The notes under the pieces are model-generated. The model did no database searches and was not told the origin of the DNA. It saw only the letters and a list, made by a program, of their open reading frames with translations. The position numbers and the translations under genes are program-made. Source: Shouchella patagoniensis (GTDB taxonomy: Bacteria; Bacillota; Bacilli; Bacillales; Bacillaceae_D). From it: 64,000 nt of DNA. Of the stretch, positions 3,837 through 58,056 are shown piece after piece. Every line of letters starts with the position of its first letter. Positions within the stretch are counted from its first letter, which is position 1. The stretch spans positions 928,565 through 992,564 of the forward strand of contig NZ_KV917377.1 of assembly GCF_002019705.1 (NCBI RefSeq), in the 5' to 3' direction.

Positions 3837-4961
3837 TTAACGATTACGTCTATTACGTAAAAACGTTGGTATATCAAGTGTATCAGGTTGTTCTTCTGTT
3901 TGTTGCGGCTTTTGACGATTTTCAGAGCGCTTTGCTTCTTCTTTCTGTTGCACGGGAGCTTGTTTTTGCTTAGTCGGTCGATTTGTTACTGGCTGTTTTT
4001 TTTCAGGGCTTTCTTCAAAGCCAGTTGCAATTACCGTAACCACAATCTCATCTTTCAAGTTCTCATTAATAACAGAGCCAAAGATCATATTTACCTCTTC
4101 ATCACAGGCTTCAGAGACAATTTCAGCCGCCTCATGAACTTCATACAAGCTTAAGTTCGTTCCCCCTGTTATATTCATCAGAACACCTTGTGCGCCGTCA
4201 ACTGATGTTTCAAGCAATGGACTCGAAATTGCTTTTTTTGCGGCTTCCGCAGCTCGGTTTTCACCTGTAGCTATGCCGATTCCCATAAGTGCTGATCCTT
4301 TTTCACTCATAACCGTTTTTACATCTGCAAAGTCAAGATTAATAAGACCTGGTGTAGCAATTAGATCAGAAATACCTTGTACACCCTGACGTAAAACATT
4401 ATCTGCTTCTCTGAACGCTTCTAGCATTGGCGTATTCTTATCCACAATCTCAAGTAGACGGTCATTTGGAATGACAATCAACGTATCAACTTTTTCCTTT
4501 AAAGCACTAATACCAGAAATCGCTTGATTTTGTCGTTTACGTCCTTCAAAAGAAAAGGGTCTAGTAACAACACCTACTGTTAGTGCACCTAATTCTTTGG
4601 CCACTTCAGCAATGACTGGTGCAGCTCCAGTACCAGTTCCACCACCCATACCGGCAGTGATAAACACCATATCTGATCCACCTAGAACTTCTTCTAACTG
4701 TTCCCGGCTTTCTTCAGCCGCTTTTTTTCCGATATCCGGATTCGCGCCTGCTCCTAGACCTCTTGTTAACTTACCACCAAGTTGAAGCTTTTTTTCTGCT
4801 TTTGAAAGATGCAACGCTTGCGCATCCGTATTGACTGCGATAAATTCTACACCTTGCAACCCATTTTCAATCATTCGGTTGACGGCGTTTGAACCACCCC
4901 CACCAACGCCTATTACTTTTATTTGAGCTAATTGTTCCATATCCATTTCAAAATCAAACAT
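3837..4961 (-). CDS. ftsZ: Cell division protein FtsZ
   Basis: 374-residue tubulin-like GTPase that assembles the cytokinetic Z ring. The GTP-binding signature GGGTGTG is at residues 106-112 and the T7 loop is NLDFADVK. The polar Q/K-rich linker is followed by the conserved C-terminal peptide ([15 protein letters not shown]) that binds FtsA, SepF and EzrA. ATG 4961 is chosen over TTG 4967, because GGGGG lies 8 bases before ATG but only 2 before the TTG. It is transcribed after ftsA with 43 bases between them. Confidence 0.98.
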
Positions 4962-55241: not shown

Positions 55242-55347
55242 ACAACCAATCCTTTCGTTTCATCTATAGGCAAATGCCTTTCGTTTTGCTATACTCATCT
55301 TGTTTGCGTAAATCAAACGCATTTTTTCTAGAAGCGAGGTGGCCTTT

Positions 55348-56826
55348 TTGGGACACGAACAAGATCAAACACCATTATTTACTGGACTTAAAAAATACGC
55401 AAGCAACAAACCAATTCCTTTTCATATTCCAGGGCATAAACGAGGAACAGGAATGGATAGTGATTTCCGCTCTTTTATAGGCGAAGACACTTTATCTATT
55501 GACTTAATTAATATTTCCCCACTCGATGATCTTCATCACCCACACGGGATGATTCACGAAGCACAGAGGCTTGCTGCTGAAGCATTTGGTGCTGATTATA
55601 CCTTTTTTTCTGTCCAAGGTACAAGCGGAGCAATTTTGACAATGATTATGAGTGTGTGCGGACCGGGTGACAAAATTATTGTACCGCGTAATGTTCATAA
55701 ATCAATTATGTCAGCAATCATCTTCTCTGGAGCGCTACCTATCTTTATTCACCCTGAACTTGATCATGAATATGGTATCGCCCACGGTGTAGCAACGGAA
55801 TCTGTTGCAAGAGCAATCAAAGCACACCCTGATGCGAAAGCAGTTTTAGTCATTAATCCCACATATTATGGTTTCACATGCGATTTGAAAGCGATCGTTT
55901 CTCTTGCCCACGAGGCCGGGATACCCGTTCTAGTTGATGAGGCGCATGGTGTCCACATTCATTTTAATGATCGTTTACCACTTAGCGCAATGCAAGCTGG
56001 GGCAGATATGGCAGCAACTAGTGTGCATAAACTAGGTGGGTCGTTAACTCAAAGTTCGGTATTAAATATAAGATCTGGCCTTGTATCAGTTGAACATACC
56101 GCTTCCATTATGAGCATGTTAACGACAACGTCCACTTCCTATATTTTGCTTGCATCTTTGGATGCAGCAAGAAAACATCTAGCCACTCAAGGAGAGGCGC
56201 GCTTAGATGAGACAATTGAATTAGCTCAGTGGGCTAGAAGGGCTATAAATGAAATCACTGGACTCACTTGCATAGGTACAGAGATGCTGCAATCATCCGC
56301 AACCTTTGCTCATGATCCTACTAAATTGTTTATTTCATTAAAAGGCCTAACGATTTCTGGATATGAAGCAGAAGTTTGGCTAAGAGAAACGTACCGAATC
56401 GAAGTAGAGCTATCGGATTTGTATAATATATTGTGTATTGTCACTATAGGAGATACGCAAGAAAAACTGACTATTTTATTGAAAGCTCTAGCTGAACTAT
56501 CAGCTACGTTTCGAAGAAAGTTTGATTTAACAAACACACACTTTGTCCATGTGCCGGATATCCCTACTCTTGCTCTCTCGCCACGAGAAGCTTTTTATTC
56601 ACAAACTGAAATAGTCCCCTTTGAAGAGTCAGCTGGTCGCATTATAGCAGAATTTATTATGGTTTATCCTCCTGGGATTCCTATCCTTGGACCTGGCGAA
56701 TTAATTACTACTGAGAATTTAGCATATGTTCAAGAAAATGTAGATGCAGGACTGCCAGTGCAAGGACCAGAAGATGCAACCCTCGCAACGTTAAAAGTAA
56801 TTAAAGAACAACATGCGATAAAATAA
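55348..56826 (+). CDS. speA: Arginine decarboxylase (aminotransferase-fold type)
   Basis: 492-residue PLP enzyme of the Orn/Lys/Arg decarboxylase class. Starts near TPLFTGLKKYASNKPIPFHI; PLP lysine in TSVHKLGGSLTQSS; FSVQGTSGAI and VDEAHGVHIHF are cofactor-binding. SpeA makes agmatine, the first step of spermidine synthesis in Bacillus. TTG 55348 (5 bases after GAGGTGG) is preferred; GTG 55339 is an alternative. The neighbouring SR1 RNA gene supports SpeA rather than YaaO. Confidence 0.9.
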   Translation: MGHEQDQTPLFTGLKKYASNKPIPFHIPGHKRGTGMDSDFRSFIGEDTLSIDLINISPLDDLHHPHGMIHEAQRLAAEAFGADYTFFSVQGTSGAILTMIMSVCGPGDKIIVPRNVHKSIMSAIIFSGALPIFIHPELDHEYGIAHGVATESVARAIKAHPDAKAVLVINPTYYGFTCDLKAIVSLAHEAGIPVLVDEAHGVHIHFNDRLPLSAMQAGADMAATSVHKLGGSLTQSSVLNIRSGLVSVEHTASIMSMLTTTSTSYILLASLDAARKHLATQGEARLDETIELAQWARRAINEITGLTCIGTEMLQSSATFAHDPTKLFISLKGLTISGYEAEVWLRETYRIEVELSDLYNILCIVTIGDTQEKLTILLKALAELSATFRRKFDLTNTHFVHVPDIPTLALSPREAFYSQTEIVPFEESAGRIIAEFIMVYPPGIPILGPGELITTENLAYVQENVDAGLPVQGPEDATLATLKVIKEQHAIK

Positions 56827-56846
56827 GTAAAGTTGCTAATTCAAAA

Positions 56847-56880
56847 AAATGCCTCAGAGCTAAAAAGCTCTGAGGCATTT
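56847..56880. terminator. Bidirectional terminator, speA / SR1
   Basis: 15-bp perfect stem (56847-56861 with 56866-56880, loop AAAA), T-runs on the minus side; ends speA from one side and the SR1-type RNA from the other. Confidence 0.93.
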
Positions 56881-56947
56881 GGTTTAAGGTCTCTAGCGAC
56901 ACCGGTTTATGAAATGACTTTTACAATTATTTTTACAAAAGGGACGA

Positions 56948-57085
56948 CTATTTTTCTTTTACAACCTGGTTCACGTTCTTTGATTCACAATGCGTACAGT
57001 TTGATACACTATAGAGGCGGCTGACCTTTTCCCCCTCAAAATGCCCGAGCGTTTGACTACATACTTGACAAATAATTGTTCCCAT
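56948..57085 (-). CDS. SR1P family GapA-binding peptide
   Basis: 45 codons, ATG 57085 with GGAGGAGG 8 bases upstream, TAG stop. Begins MGTIICQVCSQTLGHFEGEK, then NCTHCES: two CxxC pairs (residues 6-9 and 30-33) suited to zinc. The opening MGTI-C-x2-C and EGEKV match SR1P, the B. subtilis peptide that binds glyceraldehyde-3-phosphate dehydrogenase GapA and modulates RNase J1. A few residues longer than B. subtilis SR1P (39). Confidence 0.85.
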   Translation of the reverse strand: MGTIICQVCSQTLGHFEGEKVSRLYSVSNCTHCESKNVNQVVKEK

Positions 57086-57105
57086 ATGTTATCCTCCTCC
57101 AATTA

Positions 57106-57119
57106 TGAAATCGCTTACA
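57106..57119 (-). promoter_or_regulatory. CcpA cre site in the SR1 leader
   Basis: Minus-strand TGTAAGCGATTTCA fits the cre consensus TGWAANCGNTNWCA at every position. It lies about +7 to +20 from the predicted transcription start, where CcpA would act as a block; glucose repression is expected. Confidence 0.8.
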
Positions 57120-57131
57120 TCTTTATATACT

Positions 57132-57160
57132 ATAATAGTATGACTCATTTAATTCGTCAA
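57132..57160 (-). promoter_or_regulatory. Sigma-A promoter of the SR1-type RNA
   Basis: Minus-strand TTGACG (57155-57160), 17 bases, TATTAT (57132-57137). Start of transcription near 57125. Confidence 0.85.
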
Positions 57161-57179
57161 CCCTTTATAGCATGTCACA
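57137..57179 (-). promoter_or_regulatory. Two CcpN-like operator boxes at the SR1 promoter
   Basis: TGTGACATGCT (57169-57179) just upstream of the -35 and TGAGTCATACT (57137-57147) in the spacer reaching the -10 each match the CcpN consensus TRTGHYATAYW at 10 of 11 positions. CcpN represses SR1, gapB and pckA under glycolytic conditions in B. subtilis. Confidence 0.7.
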
Positions 57180-57222: not shown

Positions 57223-58056
57223 TCATTTTAATTGATCCGGATCCACAAGATCATAACCTTTATCTCTTAAACCATTAACAATATCTTCAAGCGCATCAGC
57301 TGACCATTCCCGGTCATGCATAAGAAGATTGCCCCCATCTCCGAGAAGCTCCGTATTAACCATGATATCAGCGATTGCGTCTTTTTCCATATAATCAGTT
57401 TCCCAATCATAGCCATACGTCCAGTTCATATTTGTCATGCCTTCATCTTCGACTATACTACGTGAGTAGTCAGTGTTAATGCCGTGTGGCGCTCTAAAAA
57501 ATCTAGGTCGTTCGCCAATAATTTCTTCAATCATATCATTTAATTCAATGATTTCTTCTCTTTGTTTCTCTTCAGTAGCCTCCCTCAAATTCTGATGCGT
57601 TTTCGTGTGATTTCCAATTTCAAAACCCATTTCATGAATTTCTCTTAATTCTTCTGCCTTTTCTTCAGTATCTATGAAATGGCCATTAACGAAAAAAATT
57701 GCTGGGGCATCAAGCTCTTTTAATGTTTTTGCCATTTCCACTCCATGGTCATGGGGTGCATCATCTATTGTTAAAAGAACAACTTCTGGATCAGCATCTG
57801 TACCTTCAATAGGTTGTACAGTCCAAAGATCAGAGTTGATTTCATAAACAATCTCCGCGGAATCTTCCGCTGTCTCCTCTTCATTCATGTCAGTATTATC
57901 TTCTTCACTATTTTCATCTTCCGCTGTTTCCTCTGTATTCTCTGTTTCTTCATTTTCATTTTGATCATCTGTACTGCTTTCTACATCGTTTCCTTGCCCA
58001 CCACAGGCTGTCAATGCAAATAAACTAGCAGCAGATATTATTAACCATTTTTTCAT
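57223..58056 (-). CDS. Polysaccharide deacetylase family lipoprotein
   Basis: 277 residues: signal peptide with lipobox LTAC, a very acidic linker of about 60 residues rich in D, E, N and T, then a NodB homology domain. Motif 1 is VVLLTIDDAPHDHG (catalytic and metal Asp pair, but TIDDAP instead of TFDDGP); motif 2 is GNHTKTHQNL (metal HxxxH); motif 3 is RFFRAPHG. Probably an outer-surface peptidoglycan or chitooligosaccharide deacetylase. ATG 58056 follows AAGGGG; the longer frame lacks a site. Confidence 0.9.
   Translation of the reverse strand: MKKWLIISAASLFALTACGGQGNDVESSTDDQNENEETENTEETAEDENSEEDNTDMNEEETAEDSAEIVYEINSDLWTVQPIEGTDADPEVVLLTIDDAPHDHGVEMAKTLKELDAPAIFFVNGHFIDTEEKAEELREIHEMGFEIGNHTKTHQNLREATEEKQREEIIELNDMIEEIIGERPRFFRAPHGINTDYSRSIVEDEGMTNMNWTYGYDWETDYMEKDAIADIMVNTELLGDGGNLLMHDREWSADALEDIVNGLRDKGYDLVDPDQLK

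Follow-up and report, generated by a model that had tools for sequence, protein, structure and literature searches.

An SR1-type gene of Shouchella patagoniensis and the spread of a predicted CcpA operator in sr1 leaders of its order

We observed a complete small gene on the minus strand of Shouchella patagoniensis DNA, within positions 57180-56843 of the 64-kb stretch that was analyzed (the window). It comprises a CcpN box, a −35 element, a second CcpN box, a −10 element, a cre, a Shine-Dalgarno sequence, an ORF and a hairpin terminator (Table 1). The locus is an SR1-type gene, a further member of an already known type, which confirms the preliminary description of this DNA. The SR1 gene per se is ordinary. 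The part that deserves specialist attention is the cre in its leader: that such a predicted operator is widespread among the sr1 leaders of the order is new. We are confident that the gene is a free-standing SR1 unit of ~283 nt that encodes the 45-residue SR1P and would be shut off by CcpN and CcpA on glycolytic sugar, with a link between SR1P and GapA assumed by analogy. SR1 serves as a model both of dual-function RNAs and of the moonlighting of GapA in RNA decay. If true, a leader operator conserved in most of the order would link the sugar control of SR1 to one site and would correct a picture based on B. subtilis alone.

Table 1. Features of the SR1 locus and its neighbors in window positions. 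Promoter, CcpN, cre and ribosome-binding-site coordinates were read by eye in the sequence.
Feature	Position	Strand	Basis and remarks
Upstream CcpN box TGTGACATGCT	57169..57179	−	10/11 to TRTGHYATAYW; immediately upstream of −35
−35 element TTGACG	57155..57160	−	Sequence and promoter scan
Second CcpN box TGAGTCATACT	57137..57147	−	10/11; in the spacer, touches −10
−10 element TATTAT	57132..57137	−	Spacer of 17 nt
Leader cre ATGTAAGCGATTTCA	57106..57120	−	About +6 to +20; 15.4 bits
Ribosome-binding site GGAGGAGG	57093..57100	−	Sequence
SR1P ORF	56948..57085	−	45 aa; CQVC and CTHC motifs; Pfam match and translation
SR1 intrinsic terminator	56847..56880	−	15-bp stem and T tail; scan
Predicted SR1 RNA	56843..57125	−	~283 nt; start set 7 nt past −10
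speA-type Orn/Lys/Arg decarboxylase	55339..56826	+	Convergent neighbor; start as listed mechanically
Polysaccharide deacetylase lipoprotein	57223..58050	−	Upstream neighbor, same strand as SR1

Both hexamers of the TTGACG/TATTAT promoter claimed in the preliminary description are present at the spacing given in Table 1. Taken by themselves, the hexamers do not reach significance (1 found vs. 1.8 expected by shuffling). We checked the rule that places the RNA start 7 nt after the −10 element on L017, a locus of the B. subtilis group, where it yields 203 nt. The SR1 RNA of B. subtilis is 205 nt long, shorter than the RNA predicted here. The further claim that SR1 shares its terminator with speA held in part: although the hairpin is symmetrical, it was called on the SR1 strand only. 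A second hairpin (57219-57190), followed by a T run on the minus strand as read by eye, was called by the scan for the plus strand only. It probably serves as terminator for the deacetylase gene, separating that gene from SR1, in which case SR1 would be its own transcription unit. The NCBIfam matches of the speA gene, to decarboxylases of arginine, lysine and ornithine, all fall short of the cut-off; the identity of the gene is supported by synteny.

A profile search bore out the claimed 45-codon SR1P gene. The ORF matched PF13790 with 58.5 bits (E = 7e-16; cut-off 26; residues 1-36 of 45) and is the single SR1P match in the S. patagoniensis genome. Its translated product, MGTIICQVCSQTLGHFEGEKVSRLYSVSNCTHCESKNVNQVVKEK, was closest among the named SR1P sequences found to that of Bacillus sp. 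JCM 19041 (87% identity over 45 residues), with Shouchella species next. The N-terminus MGTI.CQ.C and the motif F..EKV..LY are shared with B. subtilis SR1P (RF02376; PF13790), from which the peptide differs in its length (45 vs. 39 aa) and in a clean second CxxC. Residues M, G, C6, C9, F16, E19, K20, V21, L24, Y25 and C33 are invariant in 36/36 aligned sequences, and C30 is kept in at least 90% of these. The conserved cysteines suggest a zinc knuckle. An AlphaFold model of SR1P had a mean pLDDT of 78.6, and Foldseek returned no PDB match to it at E < 0.001 (best 0.78). The top-ranked entries were PerR, Fur and ribosomal proteins (none significant), a ranking that gives no more than a hint of a zinc knuckle. 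Searched by sequence, SR1P had a sole PDB match up to E 1, at E 0.29.

We took TRTGHYATAYW as the CcpN box consensus. The two 10/11 boxes that had been claimed at the promoter are present, with one mismatch each. Boxes of at least 10/11 occur 38 times in the 64-kb window, both SR1 boxes among them; it is as a pair, at the spacing seen in relatives, that the two are well above chance. Among 78 non-redundant SR1 promoters, 60 carry two boxes of at least 10/11, 13 carry one and 5 carry none, compared to two boxes in ~1/78 promoter regions under a null model of plain base shuffling. Counted from the −10 end, box starts in the 78 promoters concentrate around −48 and on −16 or −18, and the boxes here, at −48 and −16, occupy the commonest positions among relatives. 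Passages on B. subtilis SR1 in PMC8464778 likewise place CcpN sites upstream of the −35 element and in the spacer. The S. patagoniensis locus thus has two predicted CcpN operators in the same places, and the genome encodes CcpN (NF053704, 335.9 bits), adjoining a PF03618 gene of the YqfL type.

The genome also encodes CcpA (TIGR01481, 538 bits), AhrC, GapA, GapB and PckA. A CggR-like gene precedes gapA and pgk follows it, and a SpeD-like gene follows gapB (neighbors named by eye). The CcpN regulon genes gapB and pckA resemble SR1 in carrying CcpN boxes, which match at 11/11 upstream of both in this genome. They differ in being enzyme genes and in that the upstream stretches scanned (220 and 300 nt) hold no cre of at least 13/15. 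Since CcpN and CcpA are both encoded, the repression on glucose that the preliminary description had predicted is plausible.

The exact CcpA cre that had been reported in the leader is there, and it is the single exact WTGNAARCGNWWWCA match on both strands of the window. We scored cres with a weight matrix built from 69 repressing B. subtilis cre boxes, taken from the portion of Marciniak 2012 (PMC3463425) that gives them, and set the leader threshold at 12.2 bits, the 10th percentile of these 69 real cres. The leader cre of the window reached 15.4 bits, against a median of 15.6 for the real sites. A cre of at least 12.2 bits lay within 45 nt after the −10 element in 61/78 non-redundant SR1 promoters, which a k-mer cut retained out of 121 distinct upstream regions and which are still mutually related. 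The control counts were 0-3/78 in each of 16 other 45-nt intervals between −450 and +315, and the threshold was reached by 0.2% of 1540 dinucleotide-shuffled leaders.

A sample of one locus per family, from 30 of the families with a place among the matches listed, gave a similar picture, though it favors high-scoring SR1P. A leader cre lay at most 130 nt from the start codon in 22/28 located representatives compared to 0/396 control windows; 2/30 loci were not located by the regular expression and stand outside the counts. Of the six remaining representatives, two scored 11.2 and 12.0 bits and four scored at most 6.6. Outside this sample, 9/13 extra loci carry a leader cre, the other 3 of the 16 extra loci having likewise not been located. 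Several leaders hold 14-mers identical to published cres, such as TGAAAGCGCTTTAT of acoR in L107 and L179, and the B. subtilis-group loci L017, L022 and L029 also have a leader cre. We found no description of an sr1 leader cre in the literature searched, which is not proof of absence; the primary papers (Licht 2005, Gimpel 2012) fell outside that search. A term search for SR1 in the main text of Marciniak 2012 (PMC3463425) gave no hit.

The leader cre was under the threshold in 17/78 promoters: slightly in 7, far in 9, and in L131 because its leader is too short. With L131 left out of the scoring the count is 61/77. Judged by eye, the finder program set the promoter in the wrong place at a few loci (L026, L030, L131). 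The slightly weak sites include those of the Shouchella loci L054, L056 and L057 (10.9-12.1 bits), and sites far below the threshold occur in Anoxybacillus (L108, L119), Domibacillus (L073), L125, L133 and L040. The leader site of L064, the nearest relative, no longer carries the first consensus T of the cre (by eye; unscored). The exact cre is thus not common to the closest kin, and a weaker form is. An early impression that the leaders of relatives lack the TG half came from a strict consensus applied to one strand; we rejected it, as the both-strand matrix puts this half on the other strand.

We considered that the conserved leader motif might act not as a CcpA operator but as an RNA element, the 5′ leader forming a stem with the coding part. 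The motif is transcribed, and the Rfam model pairs some leader bases with the coding region. However, the motif starts 13-15 nt past the −10 element in 44/61 leaders, whereas its distance to the start codon varies from 18 to 75 nt, excluding L096 (2 nt), whose counted site at the ribosome-binding site is probably false. It also scores like real cres and includes the published 14-mers noted above. RNAalifold found no conserved pairs in the leader and ORF of 26 loci, a weak test with a gappy leader alignment. Together, these data make an RNA element improbable. A different objection concerns position. According to passages in PMC7430163 and PMC8464778, the CcpA site of B. subtilis psr1 lies ~260 bp upstream, and CcpA might act at sr1 through such a distal cre, the leader match being incidental. 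The B. subtilis-type loci L017 and L029 do have distal cres (at −282 and −250), but these score 13.8 bits vs. 15.8 for their own leader sites. Any cre of at least 12.2 bits between −400 and −150 is found in 6/78 representatives, the S. patagoniensis locus not among them, as against 61/78 for the leader. We therefore give the distal reading little credence. At the S. patagoniensis locus the exact cre is in the leader and not ~260 bp upstream, and it is there that we predict the CcpA operator.

The evidence for the RNA arm was less clear. The preliminary description had called SR1 a dual-function RNA. A covariance search with the Rfam SR1 model (RF02376) did align at the locus (57129-57012, model position 1 at 57129), but at 33.4 bits it remained under the gathering score of 45, unlike B. 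subtilis SR1. The model fits B. subtilis best (L017, 224.1 bits). Among relatives, L048 of the same genus passes with 53.9 bits; L055 and L064, which are probably one organism, fail with 40.2. It is possible, although we hold it to be somewhat doubtful, that SR1 here is a small-protein mRNA for SR1P only and that the ahrC base-pairing arm is absent in this lineage. The low Rfam scores here and in the nearest relative (L055/L064) would fit such an mRNA, as would the lack of conserved RNA pairs in the leader and ORF. The part after the stop codon also fits: it measures 105 nt, more than in any of the other 27 loci for which a terminator was called (of 30 examined), compared to 34 nt in L017.

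To assess ahrC pairing, we searched for local duplexes, corrected for accessibility, with 54 ORFs of the window (treated as genes) and 30 ahrC mRNAs as targets. The own ahrC of S. patagoniensis ranked 80/84 and gave no signal, yet the positive control L017 ranked just 49/84, so the test is weak and its negative result carries little weight. In the same weak search, cognate SR1-ahrC pairs were no better than non-cognate ones across 30 genomes. The SR1-ahrC pairing described in parts of PMC8464778 spans seven regions and may escape a test of this kind, and the Rfam match of L048 within the same genus also speaks against an mRNA-only SR1. A simple duplexfold run on both full-length RNAs was meaningless and was dropped.

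SR1P was found in 325/397 genomes of the order and in 33/41 of the family. In a phylum-wide draw it was present in 7/398 genomes, all of the same order and S. patagoniensis included. This restricted distribution agrees with the passages of PMC8152036 that count 139 homologues and describe SR1P as seemingly confined to Bacillales. One genome of our set (G322) has 7 SR1P matches.

Gene-neighborhood support for a link between SR1P and GAPDH came from L175, a locus of the same family (G399:C20, 1490-5141). It holds a same-strand cluster in which a gapB-like GAPDH gene, preceded by an 11/11 CcpN box, is followed by SR1P, a CcpN-like gene and two YqfL-type genes. SR1P in this cluster (31.5 bits, start 2499) overlaps the GAPDH end and is not beside speA. 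The GAPDH is 50% identical to S. patagoniensis GapB and 46% to GapA, and is one of two GAPDH genes in G399. The CcpN-like gene is the best CcpN match of that genome (253.6 bits vs. a cut-off of 260). The cluster, found in this one genome, is independent support for the SR1P-GAPDH link. A genome of the same genus (G087), in which SR1P lies beside speA, has a single GAPDH and lacks any CcpN match over the cut-off, a pattern that counts against a strict tie between SR1P and CcpN. In another genus of the family (g3; G049, G196, G222, G397, G398), SR1P was found in 0/5 genomes and CcpN over the cut-off in 5/5, with two GAPDH genes in each of three genomes tested. Three other genomes without SR1P (G388, G406, G411) have one GAPDH each; their CcpN matches are just below the cut-off in G406 and G411, and G388 has none over it.

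Our preferred reading, a free-standing SR1 unit under CcpN and CcpA, would work as follows. With glycolytic sugar present, CcpN bound upstream of the −35 element and in the spacer would shut SR1 off, and CcpA-HPr(Ser-P) at the leader cre would add to the shut-off, presumably by blocking early elongation or promoter escape. According to passages in PMC3463425, a cre box located past the start acts in most CcpA-controlled genes as a block to elongation. On gluconeogenic carbon, SR1 RNA would be made and SR1P translated. By analogy with B. subtilis, for which portions of PMC8152036 and PMC7430163 describe the binding of SR1P to GapA, SR1P would then bind GapA and promote contact between GapA and RNase J1. 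Directly supported here are the family of the ORF, the presence of genes for CcpN, CcpA, GapA and GapB, and the operator sequences, which recur across the order at similar positions. To judge from these sequences, SR1 control is likely a double lock: CcpN would bind and repress at the promoter, and CcpA immediately downstream.

With moderate confidence we lean towards a wider reading. In Bacillales, B. subtilis included, the real CcpA operator of sr1 would be a strong cre in the first ~25 transcribed nucleotides, so that CcpN (at the promoter) and CcpA (in early elongation) must both release; the distal site of B. subtilis would be a lineage-specific extra. The L175 side branch would have moved SR1P into the gapB-like/SR1P/ccpN-like/yqfL cluster, separating the function of the peptide from that of the RNA. 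SR7/SR7P of B. subtilis is a comparable system in parts of PMC8464778: a small RNA encodes a small protein that acts on a glycolytic enzyme within the RNA-degradation network, and the gene is likewise convergent with its neighbor. SR7P is a different protein that binds enolase, the neighbor is rpsD, and no sequence relation is claimed.

The window coordinates agree with the statement in the preliminary description that S. patagoniensis SR1 lies downstream of speA and converges with it. The same description had placed B. subtilis SR1 on the other side of speA, and this was contradicted. L017 is arranged as here, in the order pdhD end, opposed small gene, sr1, convergent speA. We take the opposed small gene to be slp, by position (label given by eye). 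In all 127 loci that contain speA, among 138 SR1P loci that include some near-duplicates and the B. subtilis-group loci, speA was downstream of SR1 and convergent with it (127/127). The "pdhD-speA interval" of the preliminary description lies at the 3′ end of speA. Where pdhD is present, it was upstream of SR1 (65/65). The S. patagoniensis locus further resembles B. subtilis SR1 in its sigma-A-type promoter, terminator and leader cre (L017, L022, L029). As to gene order it differs from the B. subtilis type in its upstream neighbors only: in place of pdhD and slp, it has the deacetylase and a gene labeled by eye as a BCCT-type transporter.

Two variations in spacing and copy number were observed at speA. 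In L068, L069 and L071 (Shouchella tritolerans, clausii and rhizosphaerae), speA is ~1.9 kb from SR1P vs. ~0.2 kb, which means that something lies between the two convergent genes. L078 (Peribacillus huizhouensis) has three near-identical SR1P genes in tandem before speA, at 4501, 5379 and 6010, and at least two of the three share promoter, CcpN boxes and leader cre.
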